Shown: in pieces, positions 57,278-63,391 of the stretch
Layout: every line of letters starts with the position of its first letter
Position numbering within the stretch: the first letter of the stretch is position 1
From: Aureimonas altamirensis
GTDB lineage: Bacteria > Pseudomonadota > Alphaproteobacteria > Rhizobiales > Rhizobiaceae
Reading direction: 5' to 3'
Assembly: GCF_001463885.1 (NCBI RefSeq)
Contig: NZ_BBWQ01000025.1
Span: forward strand, 1-64,000
DNA: 64,000 bases
Notes under the pieces: generated by a model
Seen by the model: the letters and a program-made list of their open reading frames with translations, nothing else
Told to the model about the DNA's origin: nothing
Database searches by the model: none
Program-made: the position numbers and the translations under genes

Positions 57278-58585
57278 ATGACCGACTTTTCACCCCGCGA
57301 GATCGTCTCCGAACTCGACCGCCACATCATCGGCCAGAACGATGCCAAGCGCGCCGTCGCCGTCGCCTTGCGCAATCGCTGGCGCAGGCAGCAGCTCGAA
57401 GGCTCGCTTCGTGAAGAGGTGATGCCGAAGAACATTCTGATGATCGGACCCACCGGCGTCGGCAAGACGGAGATTTCGCGGCGCCTGGCCCGTCTGGCCG
57501 GCGCGCCGTTCATCAAGGTGGAAGCGACCAAGTTTACCGAAGTCGGCTATGTGGGCCGCGATGTCGAGCAGATCGTCCGGGACCTTGTCGAGATCGGCAT
57601 CGTGCTGGTGCGCGACAAGAAGCGCGAAGAGGTGCGCGCCAAGGCCCATCGCGGTGCCGAGGAGCGTGTGCTCGACGCGCTGGTCGGCAAGACGGCCTCG
57701 CCGGCCACGCGTGACAGCTTCCGCAAGCGGTTGCGCGCCGGAGAGCTCGACGACAAGGAGATCGACGTCGAGGTTGCCGATACGTCCAACCCGATGGGCG
57801 GCATGGACATTCCGGGCATGCCGGGCGCCAATATCGGCGTTCTGAACCTGTCCGAGATGTTCGGCAAGGCGATGGGCAACCGCACGAAGCAGATGCATAC
57901 CACGGTGCGCCAGAGCTACGAGCTTCTGATCAACGAGGAATCCGACAAGTTGCTCGACAACGAGGCGCTGGTGGCCGACGCCATCGCGGCGGTCGAAAAC
58001 AACGGCATCGTCTTCCTGGACGAGATCGACAAGGTAGCCAACCGGCAGGACGGCATGGGCGGCGGTGTCAGCCGCGAAGGCGTGCAGCGCGACCTGCTGC
58101 CACTGGTGGAGGGCACGACCGTCGCCACCAAGCATGGGCCGGTGAAGACGGACCATATCCTGTTCATCGCCTCGGGCGCGTTCCACGTGGCCAAGCCGTC
58201 GGACCTGTTGCCCGAGCTGCAGGGCCGGCTTCCGATCCGCGTTGAGTTGCAGGCGCTTACCAAGGACGATTTCCGTCGCATCCTGACAGAGACCGAGGCT
58301 TCGCTGATCAAGCAGTATGTGGCCTTGCTGAAGACCGAGAATGTCGACTTGGAGATCACCGCCGATGCGATCGACGCCCTGGCCGATATCGCCGTGAGCC
58401 TGAATGCGAGCGTCGAAAACATCGGTGCCCGGCGCCTGCAGACGGTGATGGAGCGCGTGCTGGACGAAATCTCGTTCGATGCGCCCGACCGGGGCGGCGA
58501 GCGGCACCTGGTGGATGCCGCCTATGTCCACAAGGCGCTCGACGGCATCGCCGGCAACACCGACCTGTCGCGCTTCATCCTCTAA
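57278..58585 (+). CDS. hslU: ATPase subunit HslU (ClpY) of the HslVU protease
   Basis: Unfoldase that feeds HslV. The 435-residue AAA+ protein has Walker [16 protein letters not shown] near residue 55, Walker B FLDEIDKV, the pore motif GYVGRDVE, and the C-terminal end DLSRFIL needed to activate HslV. It is separated from hslV by the his block. A terminator follows 60 nt downstream. Confidence 0.97.
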
Positions 58586-58678: not shown

Positions 58679-58722
58679 CATTAGGTCCTTCGAGCACCAC
58701 CACTCTCGAAAACGGGACCCAT

Positions 58723-60003
58723 ATGACGCGATTCACGACACTTCTGGCTTCGACCGCGCTTCTGACCGGAGCGGCCTTTGCCCAGACGGACAATTCCGGC
58801 CTCGGGCATGTCGAAGGGCAGGCCCCCGCAACGGGCGAAACCGCGGCAACGCCCGGCGCGCCGGTCGAGACGAACCCGTCTAACGCCCCGGACCAGCAAC
58901 CCGCCAGCGCCGACCAGACACGCGCGCCCCAGCCCGGCGCGATGCCCGAGATCGTCACCGAAGTCGTCGCCGAGGGCCTTCCGCATCTCTGGGCGATGGA
59001 GTTTCTGCCGGATGGCCGCATGCTCGTCTCCGCCAAGGAAGGCGAGATGATGATCGTGACCGCCGAGGGCGAGGCCGGGGAACCGATCGCCGGCGTGCCC
59101 GAAGTGGCTTCCGAAGGACAGGGCGGCCTTCTCGACATTGCGCTGAGCCCCGACTTCGCGAGCGACCAGACGATCTACTTCTCCTTCTCGGAACCGCGCG
59201 ATGGCGGTAACGGAACGAGCGTCGCCAAGGCGCGGCTTGTCGAGGATGGCGGTTCGGCCAGCCTTGAGGATGTCGAGGTCATCTTCCAGCAGATGCCCAC
59301 CTATGATGGCGACAAGCATTTCGGCTCGCGCCTCGTCTTCGCGCCGGACGGCAATCTGTTCGTCACCGTCGGCGAGCGGTCGGACCCGGAACCCCGCGTC
59401 CAGTCGCAGGATCTGTCCAGCGGCCTCGGCAAGGTGTTCCGCATCACCCCCGACGGTGAGGCGGCGGAAGGCAACCCCTTCGCCGGCCAGGCCGATGCGC
59501 TGCCGGAGATCTGGTCCTACGGCCATCGCAACCTGCAATCCGCCGCGCTGGATGCGGAGGGCAACCTCTGGACCGTCGAGCATGGCCCGAAGGGCGGCGA
59601 CGAGTTGAACATGCCCGAGGCCGGGCTCAACTACGGATGGCCGGTCATCACCTATGGCGTGGAGTATTCCGGCGCGGAAGTGGGCGACGGACAGACCGCC
59701 GCCGACGGCCTGGAGCAGCCGGTCTATTACTGGGACCCCGTCATCGGCCCGTCCGGCATGGCGCTGTACGATGGCGACGCCATTCCCGAATGGGAGGGCG
59801 CCATGCTGATCGGCGGCCTCGTCTCGCAGGGCGTCGTCGTGGTGCATCTGGAGAATGGCCGGGTGGCGTCCGAAGAGCGCGTGCCGCTGGATGCGCGCAT
59901 CCGCGACGTGCGCGTCGGACCCGACGGCGCAGTCTATGCCGTGACGGAAGTGCGCGGCGGCGGCGACAGCAGCATCATCCGCCTCAGCAAGGCGGCCGAT
60001 TAA
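58723..60003 (+). CDS. PQQ-dependent aldose sugar dehydrogenase-like protein (Asd/YliI type)
   Basis: A 426-residue exported protein with a signal peptide (LLASTALLTGAAFAQ). After a Pro/Ala/Thr-rich linker (about 20-70) comes a six-blade beta-propeller: GLPHLWAMEFLPDGRMLVS, GGLLDIALSPDF, SYGHRNLQSAALD, GGDELN and INYGWPV-like (LNYGWPVITYGVEYS). This is the soluble GdhB/YliI family that oxidises aldoses in the periplasm with PQQ and calcium. The start follows a GGGACC region; the family-typical HGPKGG with His and Arg is present. Confidence 0.9.
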   Translation: MTRFTTLLASTALLTGAAFAQTDNSGLGHVEGQAPATGETAATPGAPVETNPSNAPDQQPASADQTRAPQPGAMPEIVTEVVAEGLPHLWAMEFLPDGRMLVSAKEGEMMIVTAEGEAGEPIAGVPEVASEGQGGLLDIALSPDFASDQTIYFSFSEPRDGGNGTSVAKARLVEDGGSASLEDVEVIFQQMPTYDGDKHFGSRLVFAPDGNLFVTVGERSDPEPRVQSQDLSSGLGKVFRITPDGEAAEGNPFAGQADALPEIWSYGHRNLQSAALDAEGNLWTVEHGPKGGDELNMPEAGLNYGWPVITYGVEYSGAEVGDGQTAADGLEQPVYYWDPVIGPSGMALYDGDAIPEWEGAMLIGGLVSQGVVVVHLENGRVASEERVPLDARIRDVRVGPDGAVYAVTEVRGGGDSSIIRLSKAAD

Positions 60004-60099: not shown

Positions 60100-61092
60100 A
60101 TGTCAGCGATGGTTCGGTTCACGCGTCGGCTTCCCGGCATGCTTTCCCTGTGCCTCGCCGTTCTGGTGGGCCTGTCCCCGGTTGCGGCGAAGGCGCAGGA
60201 TCTGGTGCCGCCCGGCAACCGCAACGCCAGCCAGCCGGCCGTGCCCGGCGGCTCCCACAGCCGAACGCGGCAGTTGCGCACGACCTTCGACACCAAGTAC
60301 CAGCGCATCTACGACTTGCTCAAGCGCGACAAGGATCTGCGCACGAAGATCGTCGCCGTATCGCGGCGCTACTCCATCGACCCGGTCCATATCGCCGGTG
60401 CGCTGGTGGGCGAACACACCTACAATGTCGACGCGCTGGATCGGCTGCAGACCTACTACGTCAAGGCGACATCCTACCTGCAGTCGGGGCTGACCTTCGC
60501 CTACAAGGGCGAGTCGCTGACCGACTTCCTGTCGCGTGAGCAGTTCCGCGCCTGCGATGCCTCGCGCAGTGACGAAGCCTTGTGGAATTGCCGGGAAACG
60601 GTCTTCGAAGCCAATTTCCGGGGCCGCACCGTGGACGGGCGCAGCTACCCGAACCAGCGCTTCGGCGCCACCTTCTTCCAGCCCTATTACGCCGGGCAGA
60701 CCTTCGGCCTCGGCCAGCTCAACCCGCTGACGGCACTGTCGGTTTCGGATGTCGTGCATCGGGTATCCGGCTATCCGGAACTGAACCCGGCCGATGCGGC
60801 GGGCGTCTACGCCGCCATCATGGATCCGGACAAGACGCTGGCCTACATGGCGGCTGTCATCCGATCGTCCATCACGGCCTATCGCAACATCGCCGGCTTC
60901 GACATCTCGAAGAATCCGGGCATTGTCGCGACGCTCTACAACCTTGGAAATCCGGCGGCGCGGGCATCGACACTGGCGCGCGACAACCGGCAGAGGGCGG
61001 CGGCGCGGCAGCCCAAGCGGCTGCCGCAGGAGAATTATTACGGCTGGCTCGTCAACGACAAGGAAGACGAGCTGCGCGCCCTGTTCCGCTAA
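60100..61092 (+). CDS. DUF1402 exported protein, possible diverged lytic transglycosylase
   Basis: A 330-residue protein with a signal peptide (MLSLCLAVLVGLSPVAAKAQ) of the rhizobial DUF1402 family, function unknown. RYSIDPVHIAGALVGEHTYN (residues 91-109) places Glu105 after a helix as in lysozyme-like enzymes. FGLGQLNPLTA (202-212) resembles the GLMQLMPxTA motif of lytic transglycosylases. It may act on peptidoglycan; this is inference from motif placement. ATG 60109 is an alternative start. It converges on transaldolase with a 6-nt gap. Confidence 0.85.
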   Translation: MSAMVRFTRRLPGMLSLCLAVLVGLSPVAAKAQDLVPPGNRNASQPAVPGGSHSRTRQLRTTFDTKYQRIYDLLKRDKDLRTKIVAVSRRYSIDPVHIAGALVGEHTYNVDALDRLQTYYVKATSYLQSGLTFAYKGESLTDFLSREQFRACDASRSDEALWNCRETVFEANFRGRTVDGRSYPNQRFGATFFQPYYAGQTFGLGQLNPLTALSVSDVVHRVSGYPELNPADAAGVYAAIMDPDKTLAYMAAVIRSSITAYRNIAGFDISKNPGIVATLYNLGNPAARASTLARDNRQRAAARQPKRLPQENYYGWLVNDKEDELRALFR

Positions 61093-62055: not shown

Positions 62056-62413
62056 TGCCTTTCGAACCTCGTCTCTTGCGATTCGATGGGGGCGCCATAC
62101 GGGCCCCGGATCATCGGATATCTGCCGTACTACATAATCATCGCGGCGCTTGGAAACACCGATTGGACGCAAGAGAAGTCTTAAGGCGTAAAATTTGTAC
62201 GTGGCTGGGCGGACACAACCACTGGTATTTTTCCTGTGCACAATCCCGGCAACTGGACGTCAGGTCTGCGAAACGGAATAAATACTCTTGTTCGCATCCG
62301 GCCTACCGCCTTTTCCGTATACTCGAAAGGGGTAGCGGCGGCAGGTTGCGATACGCCGGAAGCCGTCTCCCATGGTCCGGCACTATCGACAGGAGTGTTT
62401 CAGCCTCGTGCCC
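62056..62413. other. 358-nt intergenic region between divergent tal and bcsN
   Basis: No gene or RNA is recognised. It is more AT-rich than the surroundings, especially around 62140-62340, and must contain the promoters of tal (minus) and bcsN (plus). TATACT at 62319-62324 is a -10-like element for bcsN, but no well-spaced -35 box is seen. AGGAG at 62391-62395 is the likely bcsN ribosome site. Confidence 0.6.
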
Positions 62414-63391
62414 ATGCCGCGCTCAACGAGTTTCTTCCTGCGTTTATCATGCGTGGCATTTGCGGGCATGCTGCTTGCGGGGTGCATGACGGGTCAGCCC
62501 GACCTGTCCTCCAGCTACCGTTACGTGCCGCCGGAGGGCGCGTTCGTGATGCCGCCGGCGGGCGGGCCACAGGTGGTCAGCGTCATCGAGCGGCGCTACA
62601 CGGACGCCACCGAGCAGCGCATCGTGCTTGGGACGCAGGGCGGCCAGAGCGGCGAGAACTACATCCTCGTGCAGTTCTTCGGCCCGGTCGGCAATTCCGG
62701 CCCCGGCATCGGCGACAGTCCGCTCAACGACCGGCCGTTGCGTGCGTCTGAAGTCGCAAAGGAGATCGCCGCCGCGATGCCCGGCGTGCCCATGCGCCAG
62801 TCGCCCACCTACGTCCAGAACCGCTTTGGCACATTTTCCTACGCGATCGGGCGCGCCGGCAGCGGCGACATATGCCTGTACGCCTGGCAGCGCATCGTCG
62901 GCATCGACAATGCGACGCTGATCCTGCGTGCGCGCGGCACGATCCAGCTACGCATGCGGCTCTGTGCACCGAACCAGAGCGAAGAGCAGCTCCTGCTGAC
63001 GATGTACGGCTTCTCCATCAACGCCTTCTTCGACAACTACCAGTGGAACCCTTACGGCGAGCCCGCTGGCCCATCCGAAACGCTCGGCCGCCCGGGCGAT
63101 CCGATCTACCCGGTTGCGGCCGGCGGTTTCGAGTCGGTGCTAGCCGATCCCGAACCCGAGCCTGCGCCGGTCGTACGGCGCGCCGCGCCGGCCCGCAGGG
63201 CCGTGCAGCAACAGCCCGCGCCCGTGTCGTCGGCACCGCTGCCGGCGCCTGTCGGCACGCCCGTTCCGCCGCCTCCGCCGGCTGCGCAGACCCCGTCGGT
63301 GCCGATGGCCCCGCCGCCGCCCTCCAGTGACAGGCCGTCCACGCCGCTCTGCATGCCGCATGAGAGCGGGGAGGGCGTCGTATGCCGATAG
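62414..63391 (+). CDS. bcsN: Cellulose biosynthesis protein BcsN (lipoprotein)
   Basis: A 325-residue lipoprotein with lipobox LAGC near residue 22 after a hydrophobic leader (RLSCVAFAGMLLAGC). The central domain (FGPVGNSGPGIGDSPLNDRP, FGTFSYAIGRAGSGDICLYA) matches BcsN, a protein found with rhizobial cellulose synthase genes. The last 90 residues are Pro/Ala-rich and disordered. Two starts are close: ATG 62414 and in-frame GTG 62408, the latter better spaced from AGGAG. It precedes bcsA by 34 nt. Confidence 0.85.
   Translation: MPRSTSFFLRLSCVAFAGMLLAGCMTGQPDLSSSYRYVPPEGAFVMPPAGGPQVVSVIERRYTDATEQRIVLGTQGGQSGENYILVQFFGPVGNSGPGIGDSPLNDRPLRASEVAKEIAAAMPGVPMRQSPTYVQNRFGTFSYAIGRAGSGDICLYAWQRIVGIDNATLILRARGTIQLRMRLCAPNQSEEQLLLTMYGFSINAFFDNYQWNPYGEPAGPSETLGRPGDPIYPVAAGGFESVLADPEPEPAPVVRRAAPARRAVQQQPAPVSSAPLPAPVGTPVPPPPPAAQTPSVPMAPPPPSSDRPSTPLCMPHESGEGVVCR

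Follow-up and report, generated by a model that had tools for sequence, protein, structure and literature searches.

The DUF1402 protein encoded in the window, as we call the whole 64,000-nucleotide stretch of Aureimonas altamirensis DNA analysed here, is probably a periplasmic enzyme that has the lysozyme fold and cleaves peptidoglycan glycan strands; it is predicted to work in the manner of a family-1 (SLT-type, GH23-like) lytic transglycosylase (LT). An earlier note on this DNA had read the family as a diverged LT; the predicted fold, Glu105, the register of the motifs and a large insertion speak for that reading, whereas the E-S motif and a score reaching the Pfam SLT cut-off were not found. 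DUF1402 is not filed here as a family-1 LT, because three tests, of motif I, of the spacing and of the score against the Pfam cut-off, all came out against membership of that class.

Results

The DUF1402 gene and its product

The product of the open reading frame (Table 1) matched Pfam PF07182 (DUF1402) over residues 28–329 with 462 bits (E 9.4e-139), past the curated cut-off of 27 bits. Its closest named relative is an Aureimonas altamirensis protein, 97% identical over the full length. A second Pfam match, EarA, fell under its cut-off, and an NCBIfam transcriptional regulator scored 16.7 bits against a cut-off of 500; both assignments were rejected. Searching PDB sequences with the window protein gave 0 matches, and searching them with the DUF1402 family profile gave no relative, just two chance-level matches to coiled or designed proteins. 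The N-terminus has a basic start, a hydrophobic core and the sequence AKA-QD, and reads as a Sec/SPase I-like signal. A simple hydropathy scan found a signal-like hydrophobic segment in 74 of 75 DUF1402 relatives and a lipobox-like string in 4 of the same 75, the window protein not being one of the four.

Table 1. Features of the DUF1402 locus, in positions of the window
Feature	Position	Strand	Basis
hslU, commonly found upstream of DUF1402 genes	57278..58585	+	AAA_2 match
Glucose/sorbosone dehydrogenase (GSDH)-type gene, between hslU and DUF1402	58720..60003	+	Pfam GSDH, E 6.5e-130
DUF1402 open reading frame, 330 aa, predicted secreted lysozyme-fold enzyme	60100..61092	+	open frame; Pfam PF07182 match
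Putative signal peptide, residues 1–32, cleavage proposed after AKA	60100..60195	+	sequence, hydropathy scan
Motif I helix, residues 95–108, with Glu105 as proposed catalytic acid/base	60382..60423	+	DSSP, model helix 67–80
Putative insertion between motifs I and II, residues 115–193 as excised, helical	60442..60678	+	hhalign score gain on excision
Motif II, FGLGQLNPLTA, residues 202–212, beta-hairpin-like, with Gln206	60703..60735	+	DSSP bridges, model residues 174 and 179; hhalign
Motif III, IMDPDKTLAYMAA, residues 240–252	60817..60855	+	aligned with DPxxNxxxGxxYL of SLT-type domains
Motif IV, TLYNLG, residues 278–283	60931..60948	+	aligned with AAYNAG
C-terminal ENYYGWLVN, residues 311–319	61030..61056	+	candidate counterpart of MltE active-site Tyr192

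Conserved residues and motifs

Conservation was followed in a first alignment of 75 DUF1402 members, with identities down to 38–40%, and in a wider set, which had 138 distinct sequences after removal of the window itself (rows L001 and L181), a mislabelled duplicate (L074) and a broken copy (L130). Glu105 (codon 60412–60414; E77 in mature numbering) lies in VGEHTYN near the C-terminal end of the predicted helix 95–108, in agreement with the earlier note, which had described a signal peptide followed by a helix ending in this residue. In the 75-member alignment, Glu105, His106, Asn109, the GQ.FGLGQ block, Pro209 and TLYN.G were among the columns without variation. The wider set gave the same picture: Glu105, His106 and Asn109, then Gly199, Gln200, Gly203, Gly205 and Pro209, and finally Thr278, Tyr280, Asn281 and Gly283 were identical in 138/138 members, and Gln206 in 137, the remaining one being an unreadable X. 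Of the residues whose invariance the earlier note had proposed to check, Glu105 and, within GLGQLNP, Gly203, Gly205 and Pro209 thus did not vary, and because of this identity across 138 members (137 for Gln206) the pattern of Glu105 plus GLGQ is, as judged from the alignments, not chance. Motif II takes the form G-L/I/F-G-Q in the family. The motifs that follow Glu105, namely FGLGQLNPLTA, DPD.SL.Y.AA, TLYN.G and ENYYGW, stand in the order in which they occur in LTs, and the AYN-G motif of LTs is found in DUF1402 as LYNxG. In the last motif, Tyr313 and Tyr314 are Y in 134 of the 138 members, F in 3 and a gap in 1; the proposed correspondence of this YY to Tyr192 of MltE rests on end-of-alignment registers with MltE.

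The insertion between Glu105 and the hairpin motif

FGLGQLNPLTA, which the earlier note had placed about 100 residues after Glu105 and likened to the GLMQLMPxTA motif of SLT-type enzymes, starts 97 residues past Glu105. In LTs, GLMQ follows the catalytic Glu by about 15–18 residues, a spacing absent from DUF1402, in which 101 residues separate Glu105 from Gln206. Our LT reference set consisted of 22 SLT domains, slightly extended, and E. coli MltC, MltE, Slt, MltF and MltD, 27 domains in all; the same Glu-to-Gln distance was 18 in 26 of them and 17 in one, with row L142 read by eye. DUF1402 therefore has about 83 extra residues.

We compared the family with these domains by hhalign. Against the 22 SLT domains, the family profile placed FGLGQLNPLTA on GLMQxMPxTA and TLYN.G on AAYNAG, with a low probability of 4.8; against the 27 LT domains, the unexcised profile scored 22.7 (Prob 4.3), and one column shuffle in 300 did as well. 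When 79 columns after Glu105 were removed, the score against the 27 domains rose to 30.7 (nominal E 0.00026, Prob 42), with 106 columns aligned, Glu105 on the catalytic Glu and all motifs in SLT register. Column shuffles of the excised profile (n = 300) had a mean of 13.1 and a maximum of 21.9, the reversed profile scored 11.3, and 12 real families from DUF1402 loci, used as decoys in 263 comparisons with and without excision, reached at most 18.4. The excision point had first been picked with the motifs in view, and sliding the cut served as the control for that choice: over 112 positions of the 79-column cut, the top scores, up to 32.4, came from starts 84–98, right after the Glu motif, and starts 60–80 gave 22.2–22.7. 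Because excision puts the motifs and Glu105 in SLT register, the comparison supports an insertion of about 83 residues in an SLT-like domain, which the earlier note had seen to be needed.

Two cysteines lie inside the insertion, Cys152 in 138/138 members and Cys164 in 137 (one X). They are the sole cysteines in 69 of 75 members, a few members having an additional one or a pair, a pattern that fits a periplasmic disulfide. A search for bridging families with profile A3 in 289 genomes of the class returned the window itself and one chance-level match (E 0.047, 59 positions).

Predicted fold

In the lysozyme superfamily, as a section of PMC2976769 describes it, the catalytic Glu sits on a central helix, and a beta-hairpin carries a Gln that faces the cleft; for GH23, a mean distance of 3.4 Å between this Glu and the Gln is given there. 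AlphaFold2 model 1 (window protein, residues 29–330) had a mean pLDDT of 90.1 and a pTM of 0.88, with low-confidence loops after Glu105 and before GLGQ (block means 56–58 and 70–73). Model 2, of a member 38% identical, had a pLDDT of 87.2, a pTM of 0.86 and the same helix order. In both predicted models DSSP bridges flank GLGQ.

Foldseek candidates from the PDB were aligned with VIA-align 2: for model 1, 1000 chains were compared, 90 had Z ≥ 2 and the best 50 entries were listed; for model 2, 130 chains were compared, 41 had Z ≥ 2 and 34 entries were listed. The top ranks held Tse3, MltE, MltC, Slt, MltF, MltD, g-type lysozymes and the Phi6 lysin. For model 1 the top match was Tse3 (Z 10.1, 181–186 residues, rmsd 4.3–4.5), and MltE had Z 9.3 (rmsd 3.2–3.6) and MltC and Slt Z 9.2 (rmsd 3.1 and 2.8); model 2 gave Tse3 11.8, MltE 10.5, Slt 9.5 and MltF 9.4, and all these values lie in a range, near 10, that can be common for helical models. 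No unrelated fold was seen among the 50 matches listed for model 1, three of which have inexplicit titles (9xps, a phiKZ neck; 3w6e, a chitinase; 8urn, an EtgA fusion); chain S of 9xps, from the phage neck assembly, covers roughly those residues that the phiKZ lytic transglycosylase 3bkh also covers. The 34 entries for model 2 contained one cellulase (2xqo), the rest being lytic transglycosylases, lysins, endolysins and g-type lysozymes. Plain Foldseek returned nothing at E ≤ 0.001 for either model: the lowest E values were 0.18 and 0.26, and helical proteins of unrelated fold appeared further down. Against viral models, too, no match passed E ≤ 0.001, the best being a tail fibre at 0.061, and some phage lytic transglycosylases, with probability up to 0.95, stood among mixed rows.

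The weak plain Foldseek scores, the unexcised profile score and the middling Z values are what one would expect if DUF1402 were a helical protein unrelated to lysozymes whose motifs match by chance. In view of homogeneous structure lists for two independent models, of motifs that keep their order and of the results with shuffles, the sliding cut and decoys, we regard this as highly improbable. The lysozyme-fold reading is accepted because the VIA-align lists are homogeneous and the motifs agree with them: the predicted structures resemble a lysozyme-like fold, and, if one goes by the profile alignment and by how known enzymes superpose on the models, Glu105 and GLGQ would cluster in one cleft. 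Neither of the two results that the earlier note had named as counting against its proposal, an unrelated fold or variation of Glu105, was found.

Departures from the lytic transglycosylase active site

The curated cut-off of Pfam SLT (PF01464), 21.3 bits, was reached by 0 of 75 DUF1402 members; at E ≤ 1, two of the 75 gave a match, the better with 12.6 bits. Among ten divergent members, L112 and L113 had weak Pfam SLT matches (E 0.10 and 0.15) through the same motifs. Motif I of LTs, E-S or E-T, was absent: the residue after the Glu was Ser in 26 and Thr in one of the 27 LT domains, and His in 138/138 DUF1402 sequences. At the ninth residue after the Glu (Glu+9), 24 of the 27 LT domains have Ser, two rows having been read by eye, and DUF1402 has Asp114 in 132 of the 138 members, Asn in 5 and Gly in 1. 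The corresponding serine of MltE is Ser73, a position that was checked.

Asp114 had appeared as an invariant second catalytic acid in the first alignment (D in 75/75), an idea dropped because six members of the wider set have N or G. It is a reason to consider a lysozyme-type hydrolase (muramidase), an enzyme of the same fold in which Glu105 would act together with an attacking water and Asp114 would be the second acid or hold the water. In T4 lysozyme, according to a passage of PMC2976769, the general acid is Glu11 and the general base Asp20, a spacing of nine, which Glu105 and Asp114 reproduce; with the T4 base nine residues behind its acid, a hydrolytic mechanism using Asp114 is therefore a live rival, and g-type lysozymes also occur among the fold matches (Z 7.6–7.8). 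We nevertheless consider it unlikely. All six members that lack Asp114 are plasmid-borne paralogues, of which there are seven in total, and yet these six (five Asn, one Gly) keep Glu105, GLGQ and YN-G; a second acid is therefore not needed family-wide. Moreover, the Thr found at a further position in T4 is not seen, a Tyr being there instead, and the region around Asp114 is of low model confidence.

The replacement of the LT serines at Glu+1 and, for the most part, at Glu+9 could also reflect a pseudo-enzyme, a lysozyme-fold protein that only binds, either to peptidoglycan or to a partner, and does not cut, and the insertion could cover its cleft. Loss of activity usually frees a catalytic Glu to vary, but Glu105 is identical in 138/138 members and the other active-site motifs are all kept, which makes a pseudo-enzyme very unlikely. 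On the motifs and models taken together, DUF1402 most likely cuts peptidoglycan strands.

Distribution and gene neighbourhood

DUF1402 occurs chiefly in rhizobia and bacteria related to them. Of 297 Rhizobiaceae genomes sampled, 255 have it (95 of 109 genera); for the order the count was 85 of 397 sampled genomes, and for the class 1 of 385, which is the window itself. For the phylum it was 16 of 398, and the matches listed there fall in the same order; 14 control genomes had none. The DUF1402-free family genomes listed include several of 1.1–1.5 Mb and some of normal size, among them two of the window's genus. The window's own genome has one DUF1402 and six SLT matches. Broken copies were seen in G516 (L130), where the DUF1402 match is split, and in G747:C5, which has a stop codon, and the 1.5 Mb genome G1206 has a weak remnant (E 1.5e-12). 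Locus L074 (JAHREI010000001.1), from a record named Bacillus subtilis SK6B4, has the gene order hisB-hslV-hslU-DUF1402 and shares its match statistics with Pseudochrobactrum asaccharolyticum (L073); it is probably a mislabelled or contaminated assembly.

By tblastn, hslU lay near and upstream of DUF1402 in 90 of 140 loci, a set that includes one mislabelled duplicate and one broken copy, and the gap between matches was mostly 110–300 bases. A gene of the GSDH type, which intervenes in the window, was found in 3 of 100 DUF1402 loci. In seven Bartonella loci (L066, L070, L076, L077, L079, L080 and L081; Pfam-checked on one, L066) the gene immediately upstream of DUF1402 is not hslU but one for a class A penicillin-binding protein (PBP); UppP lies downstream of plasmid-borne paralogues in two loci, and DedA beside such a paralogue in one. 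These wall-related neighbours are hints only, because they are few and each comes from one lineage; most neighbours (hslVU, his genes) are non-wall genes. Inferring a wall function from the hslVU association was rejected, since the conserved his-hslVU order is mostly linkage and says little. A Pfam scan of ten divergent neighbours and of ten more gave no single functional theme.

Other neighbours recur or stand out. A transglutaminase-like cysteine peptidase lies near plasmid-borne paralogues L168, L170, L176, L177 and L178, most of which have Asn at 114, and these peptidases are 38–51% identical to the one at L168, taken as reference. A metallo-beta-lactamase-fold protein lies beside DUF1402 in 12 loci (L099, L102–L105, L107–L111, L123 and L126), and an alpha/beta-hydrolase gene adjoins it in divergent loci L115, L116 and L125. 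The window itself also encodes a BcsN-like cellulose biosynthesis protein at 62372–63391 (+; Pfam PF17038, E 5.6e-62).

Discussion

For MltE, a section of a QM/MM study (PMC5841429) places Ser73, Glu64, Ser75 and Tyr192 in the quantum layer and has Glu64 act first as acid and then as base, the MurNAc 6-OH closing the 1,6-anhydro ring. By analogy with Glu64, Glu105 of DUF1402 would donate a proton to the MurNAc-GlcNAc bond and would then serve as base while the MurNAc 6-OH closes a 1,6-anhydro ring. The insertion, held by a putative Cys152–Cys164 disulfide, may form a lid or an extra wall of the cleft and in this way set which strands get cut. In Rhizobiaceae the enzyme might take part in remodelling the cell wall, possibly in concert with hslVU, the stress protease genes downstream of which it is often encoded. 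A broader proposal, which we put forward tentatively and hold to be doubtful, is that DUF1402 is a separate branch of glycan-strand cutters in Rhizobiaceae and near relatives, with its own set of Glu105-His106 and mostly Asp114, a lid of some 80 residues, held by the disulfide, that would have to open for catalysis, and a tie to the wall remodelling of polar-growing bacteria, a branch missed in published LT lists.

Literature searches for DUF1402, PF07182, IPR009842 and pfam07182, with most subscription journals outside their scope, found no paper, and a search by locus tag for the genes of the S. meliloti hslU region found no more than a passing mention. For Agrobacterium tumefaciens, the portion of a reverse-genetic study in PMC9238390 counts eight putative lytic transglycosylases in three families (mltA, mltB1-3 and slt1-4). 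A further LT-like family hidden at the sequence level would bear on arguments from redundancy in bacteria of this kind. DUF1402, annotated as of unknown function, now has a predicted enzyme function that can be tested, its proposed catalytic residue being named, and it offers a concrete, predicted case of a lysozyme fold in which a large insertion separates the catalytic Glu from the hairpin.

Several known enzymes share the predicted fold. Tse3, a type VI muramidase effector of Pseudomonas aeruginosa that acts on bacteria, ranked first in the fold comparison with model 1 (Z 10.1) and with model 2 (Z 11.8), over 176–186 residues; its scores are tied with or close to those of MltE, but its rmsd is larger (3.9–4.6), and DUF1402, mostly single-copy and widespread in a family, is unlike an effector. 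The g-type lysozymes (GH23) score below the lytic transglycosylases and have their secondary acids elsewhere than at Glu+9. The Phi6 lysin P5, a phage enzyme without the insertion, was the top plain Foldseek match of both models (VIA-align Z 7.9 and 9.4), at 13–18% identity to DUF1402 in structural alignments. E. coli MltE, MltC and Slt, which are family-1, GH23-type enzymes, resemble DUF1402 in predicted fold at Z of about 9–10. They differ from it in lacking the roughly 83 extra residues between Glu and GLGQ with their two conserved cysteines, in having Ser at two positions, Glu+1, where DUF1402 has His, and Glu+9, where it mostly has Asp, and in that DUF1402 scores below the Pfam SLT cut-off. 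They have in common with it the helix ending in Glu, the GLxQ hairpin, the DP and YN-G motifs and, as a candidate match, the C-terminal Tyr, and in MltC the helix of the catalytic Glu is preceded by a stretch similar to VSRRYSIDPVHIAGALVGEHTYNVDA of DUF1402.
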